A DNA stretch of 64,000 bases. Origin: Deltaproteobacteria bacterium. GTDB lineage: Bacteria > Desulfobacterota > Syntrophobacteria > BM002. Where the stretch lies: NCBI GenBank assembly GCA_019309045.1, contig JAFDGZ010000009.1, positions 1 to 64,000 of the forward strand. The letters are read 5' to 3'. The position numbers were made by a program, and so were the translations under genes. Position 1 is the first letter of the stretch. Each line of letters opens with the position of its first letter. The notes under the pieces were generated by a model. It was not told where the DNA came from. It was given only the letters and a program-made list of their open reading frames with translations, and made no database searches. Positions 1,957 to 16,178 of the stretch are shown in pieces.

Positions 1957-2769
1957 TTACCAAGCGGTGAAACCTCCATCCACCAGAAGCTCTGTGCCTG
2001 TTACGTATGATGAAGCCCTCGAGGCCAGGAAGAGGAGGGGTCCCCGAAGATCCTCAGCTGTGGCCATTCTGCCGAGAGGCACCCGCTCACAGAACTTGCG
2101 TTTGAAGTCAGCGTCCTGATCTCCCAGCACCCCGCCGGGAGAGAGCACATTGACGCGGACGCCGTATGGGGCCCACAGGGTTGCCAGATAGCGGCTAAAA
2201 TTAACCACAGCAGCCTTTGAAGCGCCATATGCCGGCGGCTTCAAGAAAGGCGGCTCGCAGTCAAGGTGATCGTAGAACCTGCTGTCCGGGGCAACGCTGG
2301 CGTAGAGCGAACCGATGTTCACAATGGAACCGCGCCGGGCCGCCACCATGTAGCGGCCCACAACCTGGGTAACCTGAAACAGGCCGAGACTGTTTACCTC
2401 GAAGATCTGGCGGTTTATGTCCAGGGGGATGTCTTCCAGCAGATAACCTCTAGAGGAACTGCCTGGCGGTTGATCTATGCCCGCGTTATTTACCAATATG
2501 GAGGGAGTGCCAAAGAGCTCCAGACATCTCTGCACAGCTTCCTCCAGAGCCCCCCTGTCCCTCACATCAGCTTCGAGAAGCTGTAGCCGGCTGCTGCCAA
2601 ACCTTTCTGCCAGTTGGGCGAAGTTTTCACAGATCTCCTGAGCCGGCCTGTCCAGGCCGCACACTCGTGCCCCCGCATCGAGCAAGGTCTCTGTCCATAT
2701 GGGGCCCAGCTTTCCCAGTGCCCCGGTGACAATGGCAACTTCACCCTCCAGACTGAAGATATCACTCAA
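1957..2769 (-). CDS. Short-chain dehydrogenase/reductase (SDR)
   Basis: A classical SDR of about 270 aa. Seen in the sequence: the Rossmann motif TGALGKLG near the N-terminus, LVNNAGID, the catalytic Ser region NIGSLYAS, and the YGASK catalytic Tyr/Lys pair; the C-terminal VTGTELLVDGGF is typical of the family. The likeliest start is a TTG at 2769 that overlaps the neuB TGA stop (TTGA) and has GGAGG seven bases upstream; an ATG at 2787 is the alternative. The overlap suggests translational coupling to neuB. SDRs in nonulosonic acid loci reduce or epimerise sugar precursors, but the substrate here is not known. Confidence 0.88.
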   Translation of the reverse strand: MSDIFSLEGEVAIVTGALGKLGPIWTETLLDAGARVCGLDRPAQEICENFAQLAERFGSSRLQLLEADVRDRGALEEAVQRCLELFGTPSILVNNAGIDQPPGSSSRGYLLEDIPLDINRQIFEVNSLGLFQVTQVVGRYMVAARRGSIVNIGSLYASVAPDSRFYDHLDCEPPFLKPPAYGASKAAVVNFSRYLATLWAPYGVRVNVLSPGGVLGDQDADFKRKFCERVPLGRMATAEDLRGPLLFLASRASSYVTGTELLVDGGFTAW

Positions 2770-3842
2770 GATGCCGCCTCCGCCCAACTTTCCGAGCCAT
2801 TCAACACTTCTAGAGTGATGTCCTCGTCTGCCTTGAGAGCCCGTCTGGTCACTCGACCAACAACTTTATCCAATTCATAGGGGGCCAGACCGTCGCCGGG
2901 AGACTTGATGGCAATATCTTCGGCACGAATGGCATAGCCTGCCGGCAGATCACGGGAGGCCACCAGCTTCTTGCCCATTTTTATCATGGGATTCACTTCG
3001 CTGTCGTACACCTTCTTGATGCCGTCACCCATGGCGACTCTGAGGCGCCGCAGGTCGCGCACCATCTTTCTGAAGCCGATGGGCTCCAGGGAAAAGGCAT
3101 GGTCGGTTCCCTTCCAGGTGTGATTCAAGGTGAAGTGTTTCTCGATTACTCTGGCTCCCAGCATGTAACCGGCTACCGCCATAGCAATGCCGTTGTCATG
3201 CGACGACAGTCCTATGATGATATCCGGAAATCTTTCACGATAGGTGCTGATTACCCGCAGGTTGAGTTCTTCGAATGCCGCTGGATAGCCGGAGGTGCAC
3301 TGCAGCAGACAGAGTTGTTTGTTAATGGGCATGATGGCGTCGTAGGCTCGATGGACATCCTCCATGGTCCCACCGCCAGTGCTGACAATCATGGGTTTCT
3401 GGAATTTGGCTATGTAGGTGAGTAGCGGTATGTTTTTCAGGTCACCGGAGGCTATCTTGAAGGCCGGCACATCCAGTTTGGCCAGAAAGTCAGCACTGGG
3501 AAAGTCAAATGCCGTGGCGAACATGATTATGCCGAGCTCGTTGGCATATTCCTGCAAGGTCTTGTATTCATACCAGCCGAATTCCAGAGCCTCTCTGTGT
3601 TCACCGTAGGTAAGACCAAAGCTGTTTTCGTGATCGTATGGTTTGTCATACATTGCCTGGGTGTAGAGTTTGCGGTTGTCGCGTTTCTGCAGTTTGACTG
3701 CATCAGCGCCGCATTCCTTGGCCACCTTGAACATTTCTTTCGCCGTCTCCAGGTTTCCCTGATGGTTGTGGCCAATTTCTGCAATGACGAAGCAGTCGCC
3801 GTCATCAACGATGTGTTTGCCATCTATGGTCAATTCTCTCAT
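2766..3842 (-). CDS. neuB: N-acetylneuraminate / nonulosonic acid synthase
   Basis: NeuB-type synthase of 358 aa that condenses phosphoenolpyruvate with a six-carbon N-acyl-amino sugar to give a nine-carbon nonulosonic acid. The N-terminal TIM-barrel carries FVIAEIGHNHQGN, DAVKLQKR, FKIASGDL, LLQCTSGYP, GLSSHD and ARVIEKHFTL; the C-terminus is an SAF (antifreeze-like) domain with ASRDLPAGYAI. The ATG at 3842 is chosen over the TTG two codons upstream because GGGAGG sits at the right distance. It lies 63 bases after the serine-palmitoyltransferase-like gene and overlaps the SDR. Whether the product is neuraminic, legionaminic or another acid cannot be told; the amino-sugar precursor enzymes are not in the window. 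Confidence 0.93.
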   Translation of the reverse strand: MRELTIDGKHIVDDGDCFVIAEIGHNHQGNLETAKEMFKVAKECGADAVKLQKRDNRKLYTQAMYDKPYDHENSFGLTYGEHREALEFGWYEYKTLQEYANELGIIMFATAFDFPSADFLAKLDVPAFKIASGDLKNIPLLTYIAKFQKPMIVSTGGGTMEDVHRAYDAIMPINKQLCLLQCTSGYPAAFEELNLRVISTYRERFPDIIIGLSSHDNGIAMAVAGYMLGARVIEKHFTLNHTWKGTDHAFSLEPIGFRKMVRDLRRLRVAMGDGIKKVYDSEVNPMIKMGKKLVASRDLPAGYAIRAEDIAIKSPGDGLAPYELDKVVGRVTRRALKADEDITLEVLNGSESWAEAAS

Positions 3843-3905
3843 CTGCAACCTCCCTCGTCTCGAGTTTCGAGATACTTATGATAGAAAGTTTCATGTCTAT
3901 GCCTT

Positions 3906-5108
3906 TTAATTGCTATCTGTTTCACTCCTGATAGATTCGCGCAGAGAAGCAAAGGCCTGGCTGATATGCTCCACCTGCTGCCGAGTGTGACCGGCGCTGA
4001 CGCTGCACCTGAGCAGGGCATTGCCATCAGGTGTAGCTGGGGGCAGCACCAGGTTCACATACACTCCGCGCTCCAGCAGCCCACTCCAGAGGAAAAGCGC
4101 CTCTTCTGTCCTGGCAAGCCGCACTGCAATAATTGGACTTACTTCTGGGCCGAGAAGGAAATCCATCTCTTTGAGACTCTGGTACAGATAGTGGGCATTG
4201 TCCCACAAGCGATGACGCAGCTCCGGTTGGCTGCGCAGAATCTTCAAAGCTGTACGGGTAGAAGCCACGATGGAGGGAGAGGGCGAAGCAGTGAAAATAT
4301 ATGGCCGGCTGGCATAACGGACCAACTCCAGTTCTGGATGGTTGCTGACGCAATATCCCCCGATGGCGCCCAGACTCTTGCTAAAGGTGCCTACTATGAA
4401 GTCCACTTGATCTTCCACGCCAGCCTCTTCCGCCAGGCCCCTGCCGTGCTCGCCCAATACGCCCACGGAATGCGCCTCGTCTACCAGAAGATAAGCACCG
4501 TAGTCGCTCTTCACCTGGGCTATCTCTTTGAGAGGTGCCCGGTCCCCCAGCATGCTGTAAATGCCTTCCACCAGGATCAGGCTGTTTTCTGTTCGGGATC
4601 CCAGACGTCGCAGCCTCTTGGCCAGGTCCGCCGGATTGTTGTGTCGAAAGCGAATAATCTCTGCACCGCTCAGGCGGCAGCCGTCATAAATACTGGCGTG
4701 ACAGTCGGCGTCGAGCAAAATGACGTCTCCAGGTCCTGCCAGCGCCGAGAGCATCCCCAGATTGGCCACATAACCGGTAGAGAAGACTATAGCACCGTGA
4801 CAGCCAAAGAAGTCAGCGAGTTCGTGCTCGAGAGCAACGTGTCCATGAAAGGTGCCGTTGGCCATTCGCGATCCCGTGGTCCCTGTGCCTTCTTCGCGGA
4901 CCGCCCTGCAGGCCGCCTCGATGCAGTCGGGATCAAAAGTGAGGCCCAGATAGTTGTTGGTTCCCACCAGAATGGTACGGCGTCCATTGACAATGGCTTC
5001 GGTCGGCGACAGCACCTGCGACATGGTGACATTGATGGAGTCTACGCCACTGTCGGCCAGCGCCTTTCTGCCCTCGGCAAGTGGTCTGAACTTGTCAAAG
5101 ATAGCCAT
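3906..5108 (-). CDS. spt: Serine palmitoyltransferase-like PLP enzyme (alpha-oxoamine synthase family)
   Basis: A 400-aa alpha-oxoamine synthase, which decarboxylatively condenses an amino acid with an acyl thioester. PLP features are visible: DCHASIYDG (His about 137), LVDEAHSVG (Asp 210, His 213) and TFSKSLGAIGG with the Schiff-base Lys 244. The family also includes 8-amino-7-oxononanoate synthase and 2-amino-3-ketobutyrate ligase. Serine palmitoyltransferase is preferred because the gene overlaps a dedicated acyl carrier protein by one base (TAATG) and is preceded by a reductase and an acyl-activating enzyme, the same set and order as in the Caulobacter ceramide locus. No biotin genes are near. 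The product would be a 3-oxo long-chain base. Confidence 0.82.
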   Translation of the reverse strand: MAIFDKFRPLAEGRKALADSGVDSINVTMSQVLSPTEAIVNGRRTILVGTNNYLGLTFDPDCIEAACRAVREEGTGTTGSRMANGTFHGHVALEHELADFFGCHGAIVFSTGYVANLGMLSALAGPGDVILLDADCHASIYDGCRLSGAEIIRFRHNNPADLAKRLRRLGSRTENSLILVEGIYSMLGDRAPLKEIAQVKSDYGAYLLVDEAHSVGVLGEHGRGLAEEAGVEDQVDFIVGTFSKSLGAIGGYCVSNHPELELVRYASRPYIFTASPSPSIVASTRTALKILRSQPELRHRLWDNAHYLYQSLKEMDFLLGPEVSPIIAVRLARTEEALFLWSGLLERGVYVNLVLPPATPDGNALLRCSVSAGHTRQQVEHISQAFASLRESIRSETDSN

Positions 5109-5359
5109 TACGCTCCTTCCTTGATTATTTCCTGCAGTTGCAGGGCAAAATCTTTCACTGTGCGTACTGTGGGAAGGATATTGAGAGGTATAGATATGTC
5201 AAATCTGTCTTCCACCTGGACGAGCAGCTTCATGACCTGCAGGGAATCCAGGCCAAGATCGTCAATGAGATCAGTCTCTTCCGTGAGGGTGCGCCCGTCT
5301 TTGACAAAGGGCTGCAGTATTTCACACAGTTGCTCACGTATATCTTGGTAGCTATACAT
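5108..5359 (-). CDS. Dedicated acyl carrier protein for long-chain-base synthesis
   Basis: An 83-aa acyl carrier protein. The phosphopantetheine site is DDLGLDSLQVMK, with Ser about 39, preceded by LTEETDLI. The start at ATG 5359 is set by GGAGG just upstream; a longer frame exists but is not protein-like. Its stop codon shares a base with the start of the serine-palmitoyltransferase-like gene, so the two are translationally coupled. It probably receives the acyl chain from the upstream acyl-AMP ligase and hands it to the PLP enzyme, as proposed for the extra ACP in the Caulobacter sphingolipid cluster. It is too short and specialised to be assumed to be the housekeeping fatty acid ACP. Confidence 0.9.
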   Translation of the reverse strand: MYSYQDIREQLCEILQPFVKDGRTLTEETDLIDDLGLDSLQVMKLLVQVEDRFDISIPLNILPTVRTVKDFALQLQEIIKEGA

Positions 5360-5433: not shown

Positions 5434-6384
5434 TCAAGAGGAACACATCCATCTGTTGCCATGTTCGAAGGTTCGCCGCAGACCTTCCTCCAGGGTGACC
5501 TGTGGTTGCCAACCGTACATTCGGCTGCAAGCATCATCCTTACACACCCAATTCAAATGGCACAACTCACGTACTTTGTCTGGGGTCAACATGGGGGCGT
5601 ATCCCAGGAGCCGCGCCATAGACAAGTTGACCAGAGCAGCTGTTCGAAGCAGTGGCTCCGGCACTGAGAAGCAACGGATCCTCCTGTGGCACAAGCGGCC
5701 GACAGTGTCCACTACTTCCTGCCAGGTATAGCCGCTGGTCTTGCCGTCATGCAGTTCAATTGCAGCTGCCACACTTTTGCTGCTCCTCAACCAGTGCAGG
5801 ACTGCCTCAGCAAGGTCTTCCACAAAGAGCAAAGAAAAGCGAGCTTCGGGCGGCCCCAGAACAGGAGCAATGCCCCTGGCCATCAAACGAAAAAGAGGCA
5901 ACAGTTCCCGATCTTCCGGACCGTATACGGCTGGAGGCCGAAATGCCGTCCAGGCCATTTCCCCTGCCAGCTGTTCCACCATGATCTCACCCTGGCGTTT
6001 ACTGGCGGCATACATGGACAGCTGAGGCTCTCTGGCAGCCAAAGAAGATATCAACAAAAAACGCGGCACCGGGTGCTGCCTTGTCACAGCCTGCACCAGC
6101 CGCGCCACGCCCTCAACGTTTACCCGCTCGAAATCTGTCTTCCAGGCCCCTCGAATCACTCCGGCACAATGGACTACGAAATCTGCTCCCTCTACCAGGC
6201 GGCACAAGCTATCGGTATCAGAGAGATCGCCGGGGACGAATTCAATGGAATAGCCTGCAAGAGGGCTGGCCGAAAAGGATGAGCGGAGCAGGGCTTTCAC
6301 TCGGTACCCTTCGGCCTGCAATCGGCGGGCAATCGCCCTGCCAATAAAACCCGTGCCCCCCGTTAATGCCACAATACGGGTCAT
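5434..6384 (-). CDS. cerR: NAD(P)-dependent epimerase/dehydratase, CerR-like ceramide (3-oxo-sphinganine) reductase
   Basis: An extended SDR of 316 aa. The cofactor loop TGGTGFIG is at residues 8-15, the catalytic Ser is in LLISSLAA (about 113) and the YAASK pair at Tyr 125/Lys 129. The protein matches the NAD-dependent epimerase/dehydratase group rather than classical SDRs. In Caulobacter a protein of this type, next to the serine palmitoyltransferase and its ACP, reduces the 3-oxo group of the sphingoid intermediate; the same neighbours here suggest that role. It starts 23 bases after the acyl-AMP ligase gene. A sugar epimerase role is the alternative, given the nonulosonate genes downstream. 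Confidence 0.78.
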   Translation of the reverse strand: MTRIVALTGGTGFIGRAIARRLQAEGYRVKALLRSSFSASPLAGYSIEFVPGDLSDTDSLCRLVEGADFVVHCAGVIRGAWKTDFERVNVEGVARLVQAVTRQHPVPRFLLISSLAAREPQLSMYAASKRQGEIMVEQLAGEMAWTAFRPPAVYGPEDRELLPLFRLMARGIAPVLGPPEARFSLLFVEDLAEAVLHWLRSSKSVAAAIELHDGKTSGYTWQEVVDTVGRLCHRRIRCFSVPEPLLRTAALVNLSMARLLGYAPMLTPDKVRELCHLNWVCKDDACSRMYGWQPQVTLEEGLRRTFEHGNRWMCSS

Positions 6385-6407: not shown

Positions 6408-8189
6408 TTACACTGCACGCTTGCTATCAGCAGCATAAAATGCTGCCGGCTGGGAACCCAGAAATTGTTCTCGCGGCACCCTTCTCAAAAAGTCCTGCCG
6501 GGCTCCCGACCTAGACAACTTGCCCGAGGAGGTGCGGGGCAATGTGTGAGGGGGCACTAATTCAATAAAGCATTCTATACCCAGCTCGGTTCTGATCAAT
6601 CCTCGCAAGCGGTCTACCAGTTCATTACGTTTGCCAGGGTCTGTCTGGCGACATTGAATTACCAGAACTGCTTCTTCCTCGCCATTAGAGCCTGGCACTG
6701 AAAAAGCTGAAGCATCTCCTGTGCGGAGTTCCGGCTGTTTTTCGGCCAGATATTCCAGATCCTGCGGCCAGATATTGCGGCCATTGATAATGATCAGATC
6801 CTTTGCCCTGCCCGTGATAATAATGCTGTCCTGACTGCTGTAGCCGATATCGCCGGTGTTCAACCAGCCCTCTGGTGACAACACTTCTGCCGTTGCCCGG
6901 GGATCGTCGAAATAGCCGGCCATGACGCTTGGTCCTCGCACAAAAATTGTGCCGCAGTGCCGTTCCGGCAGAGGTCGGCCCAGATCGTCGCGGATTTCAA
7001 CCTGGAATCCGGGCAGGGCACAGCCACAGTTGACGTAAGTGTTGGTACGGATGCCCCGCTCCTCGTTGTTGCCGGCAACAGGCAAAGCTACGCCGGTTTC
7101 GGACAGGTGATCGCCATCCACACAATCAACCTGCAGTCCCTGGCTGAGTGGTGCGAAGGTCACGGCCAGGGAACACTCTGCCATGCCGTAGCAGGCAACA
7201 AAAGCATTGCTGTTGAAACCGCAAGGCTGAAGAGCCGCAGCAAACTGTTCAAGGGGTTCAGAACGAATTGTCTCGGCTCCTACACCGGCGACTCGCCAGC
7301 AATTTAGATCCAATTCCTCCGTATCCCTTTGGCGCAGTCGCCGTCCGCAAAGCTCGTAGCCGAAGGGAGGGCTGAAAGAAATAGTGCCCCGGTTATTACT
7401 TATAAGCGTTAGCCACTGCCTCGGGCGCATGGCAAAATCGCGGGTACTCAAATAATCGACGCTCAACTGGCAGGCCACCGGTCCCAACACAAGGCCTACC
7501 AGACCCATATCATGATAATATGGCAGCCAGGACACCGCCCGATCACCCGGCCGCACCTGGAGGCCATACTTGGTGATGCCGCTCAGATTGCTCATGAGCG
7601 CCTTTTGGGTGATCATCACACCTCGTGGAAAGCGCGTGCTTCCGGAAGTATACTGCAGATAGGCGATTTCAGTAGCCTGCAGCGGCTGCAGTTCCTTGTC
7701 GGCCTTCGGCAGCACGCTGAATTCGGCGGGACTACCATAAAATTTCAGATCCAGCCCGTTGGCAGCTTCTGACAAAAAGGGAAGGAATCCTGACGGTGCC
7801 ATGGCCACAGATGATTTTGAGATCTGCAGCAATCGCCGCAATCGAGAGACAAAGGCCTTGTGGCCCCCCAGGTGGATGGCAGCGGGAAGCGGCACTGGTA
7901 CCAGGCCTGCATACTGGCAGGCGAAAAAGAACACCAGGAATTCTGGAGCAGTATCTGCCACCAGTGACACTCGCGCCCCGCGAGGCAAATCGAGGCTGAG
8001 AAGCTGTAAAGCCACAAGCCTGGCCTCTTGCCGAAGCTTGGCGTAGGGGAGAACGCTCTGCAGTTTTCCTGCGCCGGTATAAAAATTACAGCCGGTTTCA
8101 CCCTGAGCTGCATAGTCAAGCGCCTCGGCCAATGTGGAGAAATCCGCGACTCTCAAGGGTAGCTTATTTCCAGTTGGCGTAGCCTTCAT
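6408..8189 (-). CDS. Fatty acyl-AMP ligase / acyl-ACP synthetase
   Basis: A 593-aa member of the ANL adenylating family, activating a fatty acid as acyl-AMP, most likely for transfer to the ACP encoded two genes downstream. Motifs: YLQYTSGSTRFPRG (about residue 178-190), WLPYYHDMGL, ACYGMAE, GWLNTGDIGY and the terminal LPRTSSGKLSR with the catalytic Lys. YYHDMGL and the general organisation resemble fatty acyl-AMP ligases more than acyl-CoA synthetases. The start at ATG 8189 has GGGAGG about ten bases upstream; a GTG eight codons earlier is possible. It is the first gene of the minus-strand row, preceded by a long intergenic region with a candidate promoter. Confidence 0.85.
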   Translation of the reverse strand: MKATPTGNKLPLRVADFSTLAEALDYAAQGETGCNFYTGAGKLQSVLPYAKLRQEARLVALQLLSLDLPRGARVSLVADTAPEFLVFFFACQYAGLVPVPLPAAIHLGGHKAFVSRLRRLLQISKSSVAMAPSGFLPFLSEAANGLDLKFYGSPAEFSVLPKADKELQPLQATEIAYLQYTSGSTRFPRGVMITQKALMSNLSGITKYGLQVRPGDRAVSWLPYYHDMGLVGLVLGPVACQLSVDYLSTRDFAMRPRQWLTLISNNRGTISFSPPFGYELCGRRLRQRDTEELDLNCWRVAGVGAETIRSEPLEQFAAALQPCGFNSNAFVACYGMAECSLAVTFAPLSQGLQVDCVDGDHLSETGVALPVAGNNEERGIRTNTYVNCGCALPGFQVEIRDDLGRPLPERHCGTIFVRGPSVMAGYFDDPRATAEVLSPEGWLNTGDIGYSSQDSIIITGRAKDLIIINGRNIWPQDLEYLAEKQPELRTGDASAFSVPGSNGEEEAVLVIQCRQTDPGKRNELVDRLRGLIRTELGIECFIELVPPHTLPRTSSGKLSRSGARQDFLRRVPREQFLGSQPAAFYAADSKRAV

Positions 8190-8213
8190 AGTACTGTCTG
8201 CCTCCCTGTTCAC

Positions 8214-9238
8214 TGCAACCCTCTTTTCCTTGACAATCTGAAGGCTCGAACAAAACGATTATGTAGTAAGCCGCTGTTTTCTTTATAATAGTTTCCTGTT
8301 AGACTTGGGCGTCTCTTATATTTTCTGCAATAACACATGTCGTTTCTACATGATCTGTTGGAGAATGTCAAATTTCGCCCTCGAAGGACGAGGTGACTGT
8401 AACTTGATTCCACCTAATTGGTTGACCACAGCAAGGTATTCTTTGTCGATATCCTTTGCTGGGTGAAAAACTGCCTCCTGCGGAGCAGCTTTCTTTCATT
8501 CACTCTCAGGGAGGTCCTTCTTGCGGTGCACAAAGATAGACACCTGAGACCTCCATGTAGATGCACATAACTATCTCTTCTCTTGGCTGCCTGCAATAAG
8601 GTAGTGTCTTTGGTATATATCTAAAGGAAACTGGGTGCGCTCGCCAGTCAGCAGGGGCTCGGTATGCCAGAACATATATACACTACAACTCATCTTGCTT
8701 GCTGAAGAGGAATCCTCATCTCTTTCACAAGCAAGCCTGGTTCTGCTTTTTTTGCCTGGTAGGGTGAGCTTCATTCTTTTCTGAATGCTCGCCTGTTAAT
8801 GCAAGCAGGTACTTGCGATAGGTCTCAAAAGATTACCACCGGCCCAAACCTTGAAACGCACGCTCAAGAAAAATTTCCTCTACCCATTTTTCACTTTGGT
8901 TTATGCTCACCCTCGTCTTCGCAATATTTTTATGCAAGTAGACGCCTAAAGATAAGCAATAAATATGCCTAGCACAAGTAAGGACCGCCAGGGCAAATGT
9001 CGGCAGTCAGGGCCATGTCGGTCACGTGCTTGAAATAAAGGAGTAATTGGCATAAAAGCATCTAAACAAGGGAATTTTGTTTCCAGATCTCGCCAGGGAG
9101 CCAGCACTGGAGTCTTTCTAAACTGTGGGGAAAAACGCACAATAAGGACTTTGACTATGTAGTTTTTGCCACGGTCTCACCGACCATACCAGGAGGCATC
9201 GAACGTCGGTGCCCGCCGCGTCGACAAGAGGTGTTCGC
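8214..9238. other. Long AT-richer intergenic region between divergent operons
   Basis: About one kilobase separates the acyl-AMP ligase gene from the divergent GNAT-fold acyltransferase gene. Apart from the candidate minus-strand promoter near 8345-8371 I see only short frames with no protein-like composition, RBS or recognisable motif. Such a long spacer between two compact operons may hold regulatory sites or a small RNA, but nothing specific can be supported. Confidence 0.5.
8343..8371 (-). promoter_or_regulatory. Candidate sigma-70 promoter for the acyl-AMP ligase / spt / neuB row
   Basis: On the minus strand a perfect -35 TTGACA (8371-8366) is followed after 17 bases by TAGAAA (8348-8343), four of six matches to the -10 consensus. 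It lies about 155 bases upstream of the acyl-AMP ligase start. Transcription start has not been shown. Confidence 0.4.
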
Positions 9239-10360
9239 ATGAGAATTGTGCCAGTAGAGAACCGCCGTCAGCAACAGCAGTTCATCAGACTGCCCTGGAG
9301 CATCTATGCAGATGATCCTGCCTGGATCCCTCCTCTGCTGCTGGAACGGCGGCAGCAACTCTCTCCAAAGAATCCCTATTTTGACCATGCTAGATACTGT
9401 TCCTGGCTGGCCTACTCGGGTGACAGGCCGGTGGGCCGCATCAGCGCTCAGGTTGACCACCTGTACCAGGAGCGCTACGGAGATGCCACCGGGTTTTTTG
9501 GCCTGCTGGAGGCAGAGGACCGGGAGGAACTTTTCCAGAATCTGCTGGACACCGCGGCACGGTGGCTGCGAGAACAGGGGATGCATCGTGTGCTTGGTCC
9601 GTTCAATCTTTCCATAAACCAGGAATGTGGCCTGCTGGTAAGTGGCTTCCATCTGCCCCCTTCGATAATGATGGGGCATGCGAAACCTTACTATGCGGTT
9701 AGAATTGAGGAGCAAGGCTACCAGGGAGTGAAAGATTTGTTGGCTTACCGCATCGGCATTGACTTCCAGATGTCTTCCTCCATGCGGGCCGTCATGAACA
9801 GAGCGGCAAAACGGGTGCAGATCAGGAAATTGGATAGAGCCAATTTCCATCGAGATCTACGCATCATCCAGGACATATTTGAAGACGCCTGGTCGCAAAA
9901 CTGGGGTTTTGTGCCATTTACTGAGGAGGAGTTCAATCACCTGGGACAGCTGCTGCGGTTTCTGGTGTACGATGATTTCGTACAAATTGCCGAAGTGGAC
10001 GGCTCCCCTGCCGCCATGATTGTGGGATTTCCAAATTTTAATGAAATCATCTATGATCTGAACGGCAAACTCCTGCCATGGGGCTGGCTCAAATTGTTGT
10101 ATCGTTTAAAAAGGCGTCCCCCAGTAACCGCACGTGTTGCTCTCATGGGGGTGCGTCGCAGGTACCACAAGAGTTTGTTGGGAGGGGCACTAGCTTTGCT
10201 GGTTATAGATGCTGTCAGAACAGTGGGTTTGCGGCGGGGCATAAAAGAGGTGGAACTGTCCTGGATTCTGGAGGATAATACCAATACGCGCAGCGTGATC
10301 GAGGCATTGGGAGGTACGGTGTACAAGAGGTACCGTATTTATGGAAAAGAGATAGATTGA
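9239..10360 (+). CDS. bcerS: GNAT-fold N-acyltransferase resembling bacterial ceramide synthase
   Basis: A 373-aa protein of the large GNAT-like family with the conserved run DPAWIPPLLLERR, NPYFDHA, PVGRISAQVDHLY, GFFGLLEAED, GPFNLSINQECG, MMGHAKPYY and a C-terminal GNAT-like half. In Caulobacter the enzyme that N-acylates the sphingoid base is a GNAT-fold protein encoded by the sphingolipid cluster, and this gene stands divergently beside spt, ACP, cerR and the acyl-AMP ligase, so a ceramide synthase role is likely. That assignment rests on family resemblance plus context; the same fold occurs in proteins of unknown function elsewhere. The start at ATG 9239 has GAGGT seven bases upstream. 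Confidence 0.65.
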   Translation: MRIVPVENRRQQQQFIRLPWSIYADDPAWIPPLLLERRQQLSPKNPYFDHARYCSWLAYSGDRPVGRISAQVDHLYQERYGDATGFFGLLEAEDREELFQNLLDTAARWLREQGMHRVLGPFNLSINQECGLLVSGFHLPPSIMMGHAKPYYAVRIEEQGYQGVKDLLAYRIGIDFQMSSSMRAVMNRAAKRVQIRKLDRANFHRDLRIIQDIFEDAWSQNWGFVPFTEEEFNHLGQLLRFLVYDDFVQIAEVDGSPAAMIVGFPNFNEIIYDLNGKLLPWGWLKLLYRLKRRPPVTARVALMGVRRRYHKSLLGGALALLVIDAVRTVGLRRGIKEVELSWILEDNTNTRSVIEALGGTVYKRYRIYGKEID

Positions 10361-10505: not shown

Positions 10506-11327
10506 ATGAGCAGGAAGACAGACACAGGGGCCATGGCTTGTTCACGGTTTACGGCAGTGGTACTCGCGGCCGACCGTGGGGCAGACGATCCTGTGGCCAG
10601 GGCTGCTGGCGTATGTTGCAAGTCCTTGACGCCCATAGGCGACAGGGCAATGGTGCTGCATGTTGTCGATGCCCTGCGGGCTGCGCGGGAGGTGCGGCAG
10701 ATAATTTTGTGCGGCCCACCTCGAGAGACCATTGCCAGAGACAGAGAGTTGTCAACCCTGGTCTCCTCAGGAGAGGTGAGATGGATTGCCAACCGGGAGA
10801 CGCCGAGTACGAGCACGCACCATGTGCTGGCCACGCTGTCTGATGATCTTCCCGTGCTGGTCACCACCTCCGACCACGCCCTGTTGAACTCTCATATGGT
10901 GGACCACTTCTGTACTGAAGCACGCAGATCTGGGTGTGATGTGGTTGCCGGTGTAGCCGCACACCATGAGGTCCAGGCAGCCTATCCTGAGACAAAGAGA
11001 ACGGCCATCAGGCTGCAGGATGGGGCCTATTGCGGCTGCAATCTCTTTGCCTTTCTTACTGGTGTCGGCCGCAGGGCAGCCTCTCATTGGAAGACCGTGG
11101 AAAAGAAACGGAAGAAGCCCCTACATCTTGTGAGTAGTTTTGGCCCGCTGACCCTGCTCCGATTTGCCCTGGGAAAACTCACCTCACAAGAAGCGCTCAG
11201 CAGGGTTTCCCGGAAGTTTGGTCTCAGAGCAGGAATAGTGCTGCTGCCCTTCCCAGAGGCGGCAATCGATGTGGATACTCCCAGTGATTGGCAGCTAGTG
11301 CAGAGGATTGTCGCCGGCCGCTCATGA
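10506..11327 (+). CDS. MobA-like nucleotidyltransferase (NTP transferase domain)
   Basis: A 273-aa protein with a MobA/GlmU-type nucleotide transferase fold: FTAVVLAADRGADDP at the N-terminus, KSLTPIGDRAMVLHVVDAL with the usual Lys, VLVTTSDHALL in the metal/NTP region, and a C-terminal IDVDTPSDW motif typical of sugar or alcohol nucleotidyltransferases. The glycine-rich G-x-G loop is altered (AADRGADDP). It follows the ceramide-synthase-like gene on the same strand and is near the lipid kinase, so it may activate a head-group precursor as an NDP or CDP derivative. It is not likely to serve molybdenum cofactor synthesis, because no Mo-cofactor genes are near. The exact substrate is unknown. 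Confidence 0.7.
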   Translation: MSRKTDTGAMACSRFTAVVLAADRGADDPVARAAGVCCKSLTPIGDRAMVLHVVDALRAAREVRQIILCGPPRETIARDRELSTLVSSGEVRWIANRETPSTSTHHVLATLSDDLPVLVTTSDHALLNSHMVDHFCTEARRSGCDVVAGVAAHHEVQAAYPETKRTAIRLQDGAYCGCNLFAFLTGVGRRAASHWKTVEKKRKKPLHLVSSFGPLTLLRFALGKLTSQEALSRVSRKFGLRAGIVLLPFPEAAIDVDTPSDWQLVQRIVAGRS

Positions 11328-11419: not shown

Positions 11420-12430
11420 CTACAGGCGGCAGATATGGAAACACCTTTCGCCGGCGCTGGAGAAGCGTCCTGTATCCGGGCGGTAGCTTCGGCTGGAAAC
11501 TTTCACTTGCCAACCGGCTGGTAATTGTCTGAGGTAAATTACATGGTATTCTGCCTGTCGCCTGGGTTTGTTGCTGACTGCAGAAGCCGAAGAAACGCCG
11601 ACGACTGGCAGTTCACCCACATCTGTCTCTATGGAGGTAGCTACCGTACGGTGAACATGGCCATGCAGGAGCAGTTCGGCTCCTCCTTGGCAGAGCACGC
11701 CAAGCAGGGCCGCCCCGTCCGTGAGTCGCTTGCGCCAGCCCACCAGATGCTGCAGAGGTGGGTGATGAATCAAGACTATTCTAAATAAACCAGCCTTGCC
11801 AGTGTCCTGCAAAATATCTTTCAATCTTGCCAGCTGCCTGCCCCCAACACTACCGGTGGCCAGAAAGGGACGACTCGGGCACGCCGTGGAAACTCCAATC
11901 AAAGCGACGCTGCCTCGCAGGCGGAGGCTGGGGAAAAATTCATCACCAGCCTCGTTGTTGTTCTGCCTGCTGGGGGTTGCTGCGGCATCAGAGACCATAT
12001 ACTCCTGCCAACAGGCAAGACTCTGTGGCCAGGCAGTGGAGACGTAACAGTCGTGGTTGCCGGGAACAACAGTGACATCTGCGGGTGCTCCCAGTGAGCA
12101 GAGCCACTGTCTGGCCTGCTCGAATTCATGCGGTAGAGCCAGATTGGTCAGGTCTCCGGTAATTGCCACATGGTCTGGTCTGATCATCTGGAGATCCTGG
12201 CGCATGGCCAGAAGCACCTCTCGTCTGTGTTCAAAACGTCTGCGTCGCCACCAGCTCAAGTAGCCCAGCAGCCGCTTGTTCAACAGTTGTTTGAGATGCA
12301 GCCCTTCAGGTGAAGACAGGTGAGGATCAGAGAGATGTGCCAGCACAAAAGCGTGCTGGTCCGCCACAGAGGCATCTGCTGAGTTGCAATACATGGACTT
12401 GCTTGACTGCAGGTGCTTTACAGAAGCCAT
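11420..12430 (-). CDS. Calcineurin-type metallophosphoesterase
   Basis: A protein of about 336 aa with the full dimetal phosphoesterase signature: SDPHL (Asp 35, His 37), GDLTN (Asp 93), GNHD (about 124-127), IHHPPLQH and GHVHR. Such enzymes hydrolyse phosphomonoesters or diesters, including lipid-linked substrates such as UDP-diacylglucosamine. It converges with the nucleotidyltransferase gene and diverges from the lipid kinase gene, with only about 86 bases to the latter start, so a role in trimming a phosphorylated lipid or head group is plausible. There is no signal peptide. The start is uncertain; the ATG at 12430 lacks a clear RBS, and an ATG 12 codons later or a TTG at 12478 are alternatives. 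Confidence 0.8.
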   Translation of the reverse strand: MASVKHLQSSKSMYCNSADASVADQHAFVLAHLSDPHLSSPEGLHLKQLLNKRLLGYLSWWRRRRFEHRREVLLAMRQDLQMIRPDHVAITGDLTNLALPHEFEQARQWLCSLGAPADVTVVPGNHDCYVSTAWPQSLACWQEYMVSDAAATPSRQNNNEAGDEFFPSLRLRGSVALIGVSTACPSRPFLATGSVGGRQLARLKDILQDTGKAGLFRIVLIHHPPLQHLVGWRKRLTDGAALLGVLCQGGAELLLHGHVHRTVATSIETDVGELPVVGVSSASAVSNKPRRQAEYHVIYLRQLPAGWQVKVSSRSYRPDTGRFSSAGERCFHICRL

Positions 12431-12516
12431 GGTGGCACTATACAATAGCTGCCACTGTTTGGCTATCCGTGCTTTCAAAATGGCTATGCCGACCCAGGGC
12501 CACAGAGGGCATTTTC

Positions 12517-13653
12517 ATGCCGAGGGCGGACCGCATCAGAGGCAGTTGCCGCTGGCATCTCAGTGATGCGAACCGGTATGCCTGCAAGGTTGACAACGTG
12601 ACGAATAGACCCGGGACGATCGACGCTGTAGACAGGGTCGCAACTTTGGCCGCGCCAGTTGAAGCTGCTGTCTCTCCGCAGCTGGCAAAAGGGCCACTGA
12701 GGGTGGGAGTTCTCAGTAATCCTCTCAGTGGGGGCAACAGCGGGGGGCTAGAAAAGGTACAGCGAATTCTGGCAGAATGTCCGCATGCTGTTCACCGGAC
12801 AGCACACTCGCCTGTTGGCATTGCTGCTGCCCTGGCCGAGTTGTCTCGAGAACAGGTGGACATGGTGGCCATCAATGGTGGAGACGGCACCATCCAGGCG
12901 GTTCTGACCGCGCTTTTCAACCAGCAATTGTTTGACCACTTTCCTCTCCTGGCAGTTTTGCGTGCGGGTACCGACAGCATCATTGCCAGAGACGTGGGTT
13001 TGAGAGGTTCACGTGATCGGGCCCTGAAAGTACTTCTCAACTGGGCCAATACCAGGGCTGGCCATGCCGAGCTCATCCAGCGGACGGTCATGCGGCTGGA
13101 TGGTACAGGCAAGAGATCACCTCTATATGGCTTCATCTTTGGCGCAGCCTCCATATACCAGGGCATCTTGTTTTGTCACCGGCAGGTATATCGGCTGGGA
13201 CTTCATGGCGAGATTGCTCCCAGCCTGACGCTGGTTCGCTTTCTCTTGGCACTTGCCAGCAGAGGCAGAAATTATCTGGCTGCGGAACCCATGCGCTTGC
13301 GGCTCGACAGAGGCCCTGCCACGGAGCAAGATTACGTCTTTCTGCTGGTAACCACGCTGGAACGGCTGTTTTTGGGCATGCGGCCCTTCTGGGGCGAGGA
13401 AAAGGCGCCGCTTCACTATACTGCTGTTGCCTCCCAGTACCGTCACCTTGCCTCTGCCCTGCCAGCAATCATTCGGGGCAGGAAAGGCCGGTATGGCAGG
13501 GCAGATTGCGGCTATTTCAGCCACAATGTCCATGAGATAGAATTATGTTTCGCCGGAGGGTTTACCGTTGATGGCGAACTTTATCAACCGGCTTGCAGCC
13601 GCAGATCTATAGTCATTAAAGAGGGCGGCCAGGTGTTTTTCCTGCAGTTATGA
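12517..13653 (+). CDS. Diacylglycerol-kinase-family lipid kinase (candidate ceramide or sphingoid-base kinase)
   Basis: A 378-aa protein whose residues from about 60 onward form a diacylglycerol kinase catalytic domain: VGVLSNPLSGGNSGG, the nucleotide loop INGGDGTIQAVL (about 119-130), and a C-terminal half with FTVDGELY. Family members phosphorylate diacylglycerol, ceramide or long-chain bases. The sphingolipid neighbours suggest ceramide or sphinganine as the substrate; a kinase of this family makes ceramide phosphate in Caulobacter. One departure is AGTDSII where many members have GTxND (Asn replaced by Ser). The start at ATG 12517 has GAGGG eight bases upstream. Its stop overlaps the next start by four bases (ATGA), so the two are coupled. 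Confidence 0.82.
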   Translation: MPRADRIRGSCRWHLSDANRYACKVDNVTNRPGTIDAVDRVATLAAPVEAAVSPQLAKGPLRVGVLSNPLSGGNSGGLEKVQRILAECPHAVHRTAHSPVGIAAALAELSREQVDMVAINGGDGTIQAVLTALFNQQLFDHFPLLAVLRAGTDSIIARDVGLRGSRDRALKVLLNWANTRAGHAELIQRTVMRLDGTGKRSPLYGFIFGAASIYQGILFCHRQVYRLGLHGEIAPSLTLVRFLLALASRGRNYLAAEPMRLRLDRGPATEQDYVFLLVTTLERLFLGMRPFWGEEKAPLHYTAVASQYRHLASALPAIIRGRKGRYGRADCGYFSHNVHEIELCFAGGFTVDGELYQPACSRRSIVIKEGGQVFFLQL

Positions 13654-14609
13654 ATACGGCAATCACTGGTCAACTTGTCTCTGTCATCGAAGGACATTCT
13701 CTTCGAGAGGTTCCACCTGGGACTGCTGTTCTTGCCAGCAAGCTGCTCGAGCGCTATGGTGCAACTGTTCAGGCAATTCTTTTTTACGGCTCTTCTCTGC
13801 GTACTGGCGACGAAACAGACAGTATTGTCGACCTGTACGTCCTGGTTGATGACTACTACAGCGCCTATGGGAGCTGGCTGCAAGCCACGCTGAACAGGCT
13901 GCTTCCTCCGAACGTCTTCTATATGCAGGCATGTACGGAAAGAGGAGTAGTTCGAGCCAAATACGGCGTTCTCTCCCTGGAAGATTTCCGGCGCGGCACC
14001 TCATTTGCCTGGTTTCACTCCTATATATGGGGCAGGTTTGCCCAGCCTGCAGCCATCCTCTACAGCAAGAATCAAGAGGTCATGGCAGAGATCCATGCTG
14101 CCCAGGCACAGGCTGTGGTTACCTTCATTAATCGGGTAGTGCCACAGATGGGCCAACACTTCACTGCGAGGCAACTGTGGGTTTGGGGACTGTCCCTGAG
14201 TTATGGGGCGGAGCTGCGGGCAGAGAAACCGCAGAGTCTAGGACGGCTGTATGATTGTGCTCCGGACTACTATGAGACAATTACCCATATCGTGTTGAGC
14301 TCACTGCCTTACGCCGTGGAAGCGAGAAACACGAACACCACTGTCGACTATGCCGCCCTGGTGCCGCCCTGGATGCAGCGTCGGAATCGACTTGCCTGGA
14401 TTCTGCGAACTTTTCAGGGGAAGATTCTCTCTGTACTGCGGCTATTGAAAGCAGCGTTTACATTTGAGGATGGACTCGAATACGTCTTGTGGAAGATTGA
14501 GAGGCATTCCGGAGTGAAGGTGGAAGTCTCCCGGAGGCTGCAGCAGCATCCCCTGCTGGCGGCGGCAGTTCTTTCCTGGCGCCTCTATCGTCGCAAAGCT
14601 TTTCGTTAG
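13650..14609 (+). CDS. Tam41/Mmp37-like phosphatidate (lipid phosphate) cytidylyltransferase
   Basis: A 319-aa protein with nucleotidyltransferase features of the Tam41 family of CDP-diacylglycerol synthases: AILFYGSSLR (residues 42-51), the acidic metal motif DSIVDLYVLVDD (57-68), and further on RAKYGVLSLEDF and WGRFAQPAAIL, which parallel the conserved KYG and GR-x-QKP segments of mitochondrial Tam41. Tam41 is unrelated to the integral-membrane CdsA enzyme. It overlaps the lipid kinase gene by four bases, so the likely substrate is the lipid phosphate made by that kinase; the product would then be a CDP-activated lipid. If the kinase acts on ceramide this would be CDP-ceramide, which is an inference. 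No transmembrane segment is evident. Confidence 0.72.
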   Translation: MNTAITGQLVSVIEGHSLREVPPGTAVLASKLLERYGATVQAILFYGSSLRTGDETDSIVDLYVLVDDYYSAYGSWLQATLNRLLPPNVFYMQACTERGVVRAKYGVLSLEDFRRGTSFAWFHSYIWGRFAQPAAILYSKNQEVMAEIHAAQAQAVVTFINRVVPQMGQHFTARQLWVWGLSLSYGAELRAEKPQSLGRLYDCAPDYYETITHIVLSSLPYAVEARNTNTTVDYAALVPPWMQRRNRLAWILRTFQGKILSVLRLLKAAFTFEDGLEYVLWKIERHSGVKVEVSRRLQQHPLLAAAVLSWRLYRRKAFR

Positions 14610-14808: not shown

Positions 14809-15990
14809 CTATTTGCCGGTCTTTGGCACGGTATTGACAAAGGTGCCGTAGTTGTTCATCTCTTCCAAGCGGCAGCTCCACACCAATTTACCATCGTGCA
14901 CCGTGATGTCTGGACAGCCGTCGCACATGTCCATGCTCTGCACATAGGCAGTACGCCAGAAGTTCAGGGGATTGCCAAGCATTTTTGCCAACACCCTGTG
15001 CATACTGTCTCTCATTTGCTTGTCGAGCAAACCGCCTACAATTGCGGCCAGCTTTCCATGAGACATACTCTTTGGCCTGGCATAGGAGAGGTATCTGCCG
15101 GTGAACAGATGGTTCATTGTCTGGACCAATTCGATGAATCTGGGTGAGACGTAGCCCAGTGTCTCGCCATTGAGAACTATTCTGTTGGCAAGAAGCCACT
15201 TGAAGGAATTGGGGTTTGCCGTGCCGTTCAAATAGGCGCACGGGCTGTAGAGGGGATCTGCCTCCCTGATTTTTTCAACTACATCTGCTGCCTTTAGAGG
15301 TCTGGCGCCGCCCCAGGCGGTTTCCTTGTAAGTTGCTTCGAGAGGAATTTTCTTGCCGTGAGCATAGAAGTCAAAATCCACGGCAAATTCCGGTGATCGA
15401 TAGAGAATAAACACTATAGTCTGGACGATATCCGCATGTTGTTCCGCCCAGGACACCATGCTCGGGACTTCATGCACCGTATTTTCTGACACCGTGGCAT
15501 TGAATGAACAGGCAAGTCCTCCCACCCGGGCTAACATCCGGGCATAGTGCAGCCGCAGATCATTGAGTTCCGTCTCTGTGGTGGCTGCCGTATCTGGCCG
15601 TCTCTGGCTGGTATCGATATGGAAAGTAAAGCCAAAGACGCCCGCCTCTTTGAGCTCCTTTAACAGGCTCTCATTGAGTGCCAGACCATTGGTATTGACA
15701 ATGGGCTTCCAGCCCATGTCTCTTACCATTCTTACCAGCTCCACAATGTGAGGATAGACCAGAGGATCTCCTCCTGCAATGCTCATACAGTCGCTCTTCC
15801 TGAGGCTCCTGAATACTTCGAGATCGGCACGCACTTCTGCCAGCGTCTTGTGGCCATGGCTGCCCGTATCCCGGTAGCAGCCCTCGCAACGCAGATTGCA
15901 CAATGTGGTCGGCTCCAGCCAGGAAATGCCATTATCGGCATAGTTCCAGGGTAACCGATAGTAGTCCAGATGATTGAGTTGAACGGCCAT
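14809..15990 (-). CDS. Radical SAM protein of unknown substrate
   Basis: A 393-aa radical SAM enzyme with the CNLRCEGC motif (Cys 31, 35, 38), MSIAGGDPLVYP and NTNGLALN, the usual 4Fe-4S/SAM core. The C-terminal part has several Cys, including MCDGCPD, but I cannot show a full SPASM auxiliary-cluster pattern. The ATG at 15990 has GAGGG in the stop region of the preceding 58-aa reading frame. It ends an apparent operon with KAS III, a YkgJ-like protein and a ferredoxin; the ferredoxin could supply its electrons. It converges on the lipid kinase/Tam41 operon. The substrate is unknown; a lipid or a small peptide are both possible. Confidence 0.85.
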   Translation of the reverse strand: MAVQLNHLDYYRLPWNYADNGISWLEPTTLCNLRCEGCYRDTGSHGHKTLAEVRADLEVFRSLRKSDCMSIAGGDPLVYPHIVELVRMVRDMGWKPIVNTNGLALNESLLKELKEAGVFGFTFHIDTSQRRPDTAATTETELNDLRLHYARMLARVGGLACSFNATVSENTVHEVPSMVSWAEQHADIVQTIVFILYRSPEFAVDFDFYAHGKKIPLEATYKETAWGGARPLKAADVVEKIREADPLYSPCAYLNGTANPNSFKWLLANRIVLNGETLGYVSPRFIELVQTMNHLFTGRYLSYARPKSMSHGKLAAIVGGLLDKQMRDSMHRVLAKMLGNPLNFWRTAYVQSMDMCDGCPDITVHDGKLVWSCRLEEMNNYGTFVNTVPKTGK

Positions 15991-16001
15991 TGCTTTATCC
16001 C

Positions 16002-16178
16002 TCACTGATCTATAGTGGGCTCGAGCAGATGCCCAGCAGCTCGAATTTTATAAGCAGCAGCAAGGCAGGCGCAATATGAGCATCCACTGGGCAGCGCACC
16101 GGTTGCCTGGCTGTCATTCTGCTTCACCATGGCACTAGCGGCTTGTGGGCAATGAACCTCCGATGTATCTGAGACCAT
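16002..16178 (-). CDS. Small Cys-containing peptide (58 aa) ahead of radical SAM gene
   Basis: A short frame with ATG at 16178, GAGG six bases upstream, and a stop 11 bases before the radical SAM start, so that the downstream RBS overlaps its stop codon. The predicted product has a single Cys near the N-terminus and a cluster GCSYCAC around residues 33-39, followed by an AAAYKIRAAGHL stretch. I do not recognise the family. Spacing and RBS support a real gene; length and lack of homology knowledge argue for caution. Being beside a radical SAM enzyme and a ferredoxin, it might be a small accessory protein or a peptide substrate. Confidence 0.45.
   Translation of the reverse strand: MVSDTSEVHCPQAASAMVKQNDSQATGALPSGCSYCACLAAAYKIRAAGHLLEPTIDQ

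Follow-up and report, generated by a model that had tools for sequence, protein, structure and literature searches.

We identify a lipid kinase and a Tam41-like nucleotidyltransferase, encoded side by side in a deltaproteobacterial genome, as the CpgB-CpgC pair of the Caulobacter ceramide-phosphoglycerate (CPG) pathway on the basis of gene order and homology. The pair is a reduced-form member of a known pathway, and in our preferred reading, to which we assign a probability of roughly 60%, it would produce CDP-ceramide. The kinase would use ATP to convert (dihydro)ceramide to ceramide-1-phosphate (C1P); the Tam41-like CpgC, a peripheral membrane nucleotidyltransferase, would transfer CMP from CTP onto C1P to give CDP-ceramide; and a separate enzyme would condense CDP-ceramide with a head group (glycerate-type in Caulobacter). 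From our own analysis this reading draws on protein families, gene pairing, predicted fold, conserved sites and co-occurrence, and from the Caulobacter homologue on the demonstrated kinase activity and on genetics that make CpgC a requirement for CPG synthesis. From these we infer CTP as the nucleotide, C1P as the substrate and CDP-ceramide as the product.

A CpgB-CpgC pair in a sphingolipid locus

The window, the whole 64,000-nucleotide stretch of DNA that we analysed, comes from a draft genome of 3.9 Mb, to which MAGs named as deltaproteobacterial or Desulfobacterota are the closest named relatives, and its first 15 kb contain the ceramide locus (Table 1). As judged by profile matches, the sphingolipid setting that the original prediction gave the pair is real: a serine palmitoyltransferase (SPT) well above its equivalog cut-off is accompanied by an acyl carrier protein, CerR, AasR and CerS. 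Beyond spt, on the same strand, the sequence reads as a short-chain dehydrogenase gene and a NeuB-like synthase gene (1957-3848, minus strand), which together resemble a module for an acidic sugar next to the sphingolipid genes. Just downstream of the pair, a radical SAM protein is encoded (14809-16005, minus strand) with weak matches to the NirJ2, tetraether synthase and HpnH families.

Table 1. Features of the ceramide locus, in window coordinates.
Feature	Position	Strand	Basis
spt, serine palmitoyltransferase (SPT)	3906..5108	-	NF047599 643 bits vs equivalog cut-off 500
acpR-like acyl carrier protein	5108..5359	-	PF00550 46 bits; adjoins spt
cerR-like NAD-dependent epimerase/reductase	5434..6384	-	PF01370 101 bits; equivalent position in related clusters
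aasR-like fatty acyl-AMP ligase	6408..8213	-	NF006624 812 bits
cerS-like GNAT-type ceramide synthase	9233..10360	+	PF00583 25.5 bits; related-cluster homologues mostly 54-66% identity
ntp, CC_1153-like nucleotidyltransferase, MobA/IspD-type fold	10509..11327	+	PF12804 53.6 bits; 37-42% to plasmid cluster homologues
mpe, CC_1158-like metallophosphoesterase	11420..12478	-	PF00149 44.6 bits; 38-43% to plasmid cluster homologues
CpgB-type lipid kinase (ceramide kinase by homology), start uncertain	12517..13653	+	PF00781 46.6 bits; homologue alignment
CpgC-type Tam41-like nucleotidyltransferase (putative CTP:ceramide-1-phosphate cytidylyltransferase)	13650..14609	+	PF09139; AF2 model; residue conservation
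ATGA overlap, kinase stop / cpgC start	13650..13653	+	sequence

That a DAG-kinase-family gene overlaps a Tam41-type gene by four bases, as originally predicted, was confirmed: the kinase stop codon, TGA, occupies 13651-13653 and the ATG of the following frame begins at 13650, the kinase exceeds the PF00781 DAGK_cat cut-off of 23.6 bits, and it carries the GGDGT motif, while the eukaryotic CxxxCxxC motif is absent on reading the sequence. The start at 12517 is only one candidate, since the open frame of the kinase extends back to 12310 and the majority of homologues start near 12697. A same-strand kinase lies directly upstream of cpgC in 74 of the 79 loci with room to see it, and the window kinase is 31-33% identical to the kinases that occupy the place of cpgB in plasmid clusters of Pseudomonas and Roseomonas.

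Those plasmid clusters connect the pair to Caulobacter. Homologues of the Tam41-like gene sit there among genes for CDP-alcohol phosphotransferases, phosphocholine-cytidylyltransferase-type proteins, LptF/LptG, a HIT protein, a metallophosphoesterase and a lipid kinase. On the Roseomonas marmotae plasmid the order is cpgD, ntp, a GNAT-like gene, lptG, lptF, HIT, mpe, cpgA, kinase, Tam41-like gene, spt and acp, which follows CC_1152 to CC_1163 (PMC11324152) and thereby equates the kinase with CC_1160 (CpgB) and the Tam41-like gene with CC_1161 (CpgC); one R. marmotae gene there, annotated as dATP pyrophosphohydrolase, we read as CerS. The mapping rests on gene order in the Roseomonas, Pseudomonas and Diaphorobacter plasmid clusters rather than on direct protein comparison.

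In Caulobacter, CpgB is a proven ceramide kinase (PMC10331486). CC_1161, which was noted to carry a CDP-DAG-synthase domain, is needed for both CPG and CPG2, its mutants accumulating ceramide, and an NDP-activated ceramide was proposed as its product in 2024 (PMC11324152); the mechanism of CpgC was still called unidentified in 2025 (PMC12275187) and 2026 (PMC13228409). The protein families, the sphingolipid link and the idea of a kinase followed by CDP activation are all supported here, but the idea is not new, having been anticipated in PMC11324152. The kinase substrate had been left as ceramide or a long-chain base; the CpgB precedent supports ceramide and makes the long-chain base less likely.

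CpgC has the predicted fold and conserved sites of Tam41

The Tam41-like protein (319 aa) narrowly passes the PF09139 Tam41_Mmp37 model, with 26.8 bits against a cut-off of 24, a match that spans residues 72-190 only and is thin by itself; eight of 13 relatives match the model at E<=0.1. A profile of 53 sequences found Schizosaccharomyces pombe Tam41 in the PDB (E=5e-6). The AlphaFold2 model (pLDDT 85.6, pTM 0.83) has a nucleotidyltransferase plus winged-helix fold, for which the top Foldseek matches were the four chains of Tam41, with E values from 1.6e-11 (TM 0.54/0.62) to 2.6e-10, five orders of magnitude ahead of the next family, the aminoglycoside nucleotidyltransferases (E 2.9e-5). This comparison had been set beforehand as the test that could refute the assignment, and it favoured Tam41 over other nucleotidyltransferase families. 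Together with the retained CTP-site residues, it upholds membership of the Tam41 family.

Residues common to the protein and to pieces of yeast (6ig2) and Firmicutes (7ecd) Tam41 are K104-Y105, W121, Y125, R129-F130, Y185, R190 and E192, which take in the CTP-site motifs K-Y and G-R-F; the bacterial enzyme has already been crystallised (7ecd; Kimura 2022, as cited in PMC11646218). Among 65 sequences, D61, K104 and R129 are invariant (65/65 each), and position 63, where a typical DxD motif has its second acid, is never acidic but occupied by Y, F or C. Tam41 is stated to keep one of the three nucleotidyltransferase acids and to have lost the other two (PMC11646218), as the pattern at D61 and position 63 would have it here, the comparison covering these first two positions. 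The last 80 residues (240-319) carry a net charge of +12 and include, at 247-270, the helix with the strongest amphipathic character anywhere in the protein; a search for a membrane span found none.

The protein encoded at 13650-14606 does not match PF01148 CTP_transf_1. PF09139 used as a query against the window genome gave no match, though hmmscan matches, and this is not evidence of absence; for Tam41 fragments, no match turned up among plasmids, phages or viral contigs.

Joint loss of CpgA and CpgD, and the head-group step

Of the 42 loci showing the cluster, 29 have cpgA together with cpgD, 10 have neither, three have cpgA alone and none has cpgD alone. Their joint absence gives a Fisher p of 1.9e-7, which overstates independence, as the tree needs about four changes and forces one. 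Genome-wide, 14 of 18 genomes have both, one has cpgA only and three have neither. CpgA and CpgD were lost together. The window genome, 96.9% complete, has no CpgA at E<=1e-10 and no CpgD at E<=1e-20, and so does not hold the two proteins that the full CPG2 pathway requires. Joint loss fits the split seen in Caulobacter genetics, in which CpgB and CpgC account for CPG, while the second phosphoglycerate is contributed by CpgA and CpgD; the product of the window organism should therefore be a simpler phosphosphingolipid.

If CDP-ceramide is made, some enzyme must join the head group to it, and here the model is at its weakest. The CpgA-less clusters contain no CpgA-type CDP-alcohol phosphotransferase, and no dedicated CDP-ceramide head-group transferase was found in the window cluster or genome. 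Unless a housekeeping enzyme can use CDP-ceramide, the chemistry must be different; CpgA itself is not needed for CPG in Caulobacter. The window genome encodes four CDP-alcohol phosphotransferases, of which PgsA and PssA exceed their equivalog cut-offs. The third, a PI-phosphate-synthase-like protein, was considered as the dedicated transferase and set aside, because 47 of 60 relatives share it and the majority of these lack CpgC. The fourth, an IMPCT/DIPPS-like fusion, joins a nucleotidyltransferase to a CDP-alcohol phosphotransferase and so combines the activity types of CpgD and CpgA in one protein. It adjoins an inositol-3-phosphate synthase gene (locus L106, G000:C121, 652-3088; TIGR03450 452 bits, below the 638 cut-off), and this gene pair could serve an inositol lipid or solute. 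Elsewhere, four loci (L062, L067, L069 and L072) have a second cpgA-like CDP-alcohol phosphotransferase directly 3' of cpgC, which in the species concerned could be the CDP-ceramide transferase that is missing here.

The same gap leaves room for a different chemistry, in which the head group would be nucleotide-activated by ntp and CpgC would act on C1P with another nucleotide or as a transferase. ntp is kept in the window and in all ten CpgA/CpgD-less clusters, though in Caulobacter only CPG2 synthesis depends on its counterpart, and its predicted fold is nearest the Thermus protein 2dpw and then the CTP-using KdsB, IspD and TarI. Caulobacter CC_1153 and cpgD mutants, however, still make CPG (PMC11324152, PMC12275187), and enzymes of the fold predicted for CpgC, in which the CTP-site residues of Tam41 are kept, transfer nucleotides. 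We consider head-group activation unlikely.

CpgC is tied to serine palmitoyltransferase and carries a residue signature

A scan of named genome contigs returned more than 580 relatives. Most of the best 80 belong to Desulfobacterota and Nitrospirota, and the remainder of these include contigs labelled Nitrospinota, Gammaproteobacteria, Methylomirabilis, Rokubacteria and Verrucomicrobiota. Of 297 genomes from the phylum, 22 encode CpgC, 14 a cut-off-level SPT and 13 both, that is, CpgC in 13 of 14 SPT genomes against nine of 283 others (Fisher p 4e-16, not corrected for relatedness). CpgC is strongly tied to SPT. The nine CpgC genomes that lack a cut-off-level SPT are heterogeneous: an SPT-like gene lies inside the cluster in one (G110) and elsewhere in the genome in three (G056, which has a Cpg cluster, G073 and G224), one has a cluster fragment and no SPT hit (G001), and in four no sphingolipid cluster was seen (G066, G103, G138 and G086).

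In those four of the nine, kinase/Tam41-like pairs or lone Tam41-like genes stand outside any sphingolipid cluster. Three loci of genus g36 (L111, L114 and L116) have the Tam41-like gene beside one or two DAG-kinase-family genes, and the fourth (L113, in G086) has it alone; these genes are of the K132/S286 type and score higher with PF09139, at 37-39.5 bits for the two that were scored. These SPT-less genes are possibly a second bacterial CDP-lipid system.

Three positions separate the two kinds of protein. W127, Q132 and H286 occur together in 18 of the 22 profile-found CpgC genomes, including every one with a cut-off-level SPT, whereas the four genomes without a sphingolipid cluster have L or F127, K132 and S286. 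In the two solved Tam41s, which use phosphatidate, the residue equivalent to 132 is K. The contrast suggests, as a prediction from sequence, a change of substrate, with the K132 side represented by four genomes from only two lineages. The signature is also present in 88 of 88 sequences of a larger set, a count that is partly biased because two search patterns included these residues. We rejected the explanation that it is an artefact of the peptide patterns behind the 80 loci, given that it holds in the 22 profile-found genomes, which are free of that bias.

This evidence bears on the possibility that CpgC is a plain bacterial Tam41, a second CDP-DAG synthase for which the kinase would supply phosphatidate from diacylglycerol. 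Its nearest solved relatives are indeed phosphatidate enzymes, and the kinase/Tam41-like pair does occur in a genus without SPT. Set against this are the strong SPT tie, Q132 in place of Tam41's K in all sphingolipid-linked members, and the specific loss of CPG in the Caulobacter CC_1161 mutant (PMC11324152). Moreover, the window genome already has CdsA as a separate gene and a second DAGK-family kinase besides the CpgB-type one, and CdsA is retained in 21 of the 22 CpgC genomes, so CpgC is no replacement CDP-DAG synthase. We regard a plain Tam41 as decidedly improbable. Least probable of all is that the kinase phosphorylates a long-chain base or other lipid whose product CpgC activates: DAG-kinase-family enzymes with other substrates exist (YegS, and P. 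gingivalis dhSphK1, named in PMC10331486), but homologues in the same cluster position match CpgB, and the ceramide that accumulates in cpgC mutants also speaks against it.

Beyond the preferred route through CDP-ceramide, we propose tentatively, at somewhat less than even odds, that CpgC is a CTP:ceramide-1-phosphate cytidylyltransferase, that CDP-ceramide is an unrecognised intermediate across several phyla, and that the K-to-Q change at 132, with W127 and H286, marks a shift from phosphatidate to C1P.

Comparison with known systems

CdsA (PF01148) would share with CpgC the expected type of reaction, from CTP and a lipid phosphate to a CDP-lipid, but it is an unrelated, multi-span membrane protein. 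Tam41 (6ig2/6ig4, 7ecd), a mitochondrial and bacterial CDP-DAG synthase, is far closer, sharing the fold, the Pfam family, the CTP-site residues and the loss of the second catalytic acid; the basic C-terminal part of CpgC, with its amphipathic helix, may correspond to the basic membrane-binding helix at the C-terminus of Tam41. Tam41 restores phospholipids in E. coli depleted of cdsA (review PMC7018664). The two are only 16-17% identical, and CpgC differs in Q132 for K, in W127, in a conserved C-terminal stretch (R264, K267, T271, Y278, K282 and H286), in its link to sphingolipid genes and in its coexistence with CdsA.

The closest counterpart is CpgB-CpgC of Caulobacter crescentus (CC_1160/CC_1161, CCNA_01218/01219). 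The window shares with it the order of the pair beside ceramide genes, the CC_1158-like phosphoesterase, the CC_1153-like nucleotidyltransferase and the protein families, and differs in that its cluster has no LptFG pair and its genome no CpgA or CpgD. In Caulobacter, the anionic sphingolipid from the CPG pathway supports survival without LPS, and the step from ceramide-1-phosphate to ceramide phosphoglycerate is the unexplained one. The Tam41 link, the co-occurrence with SPT and the three-residue signature make this CpgC step directly assayable, and the window organism, naturally without CpgA and CpgD, displays the CpgB-CpgC core alone.
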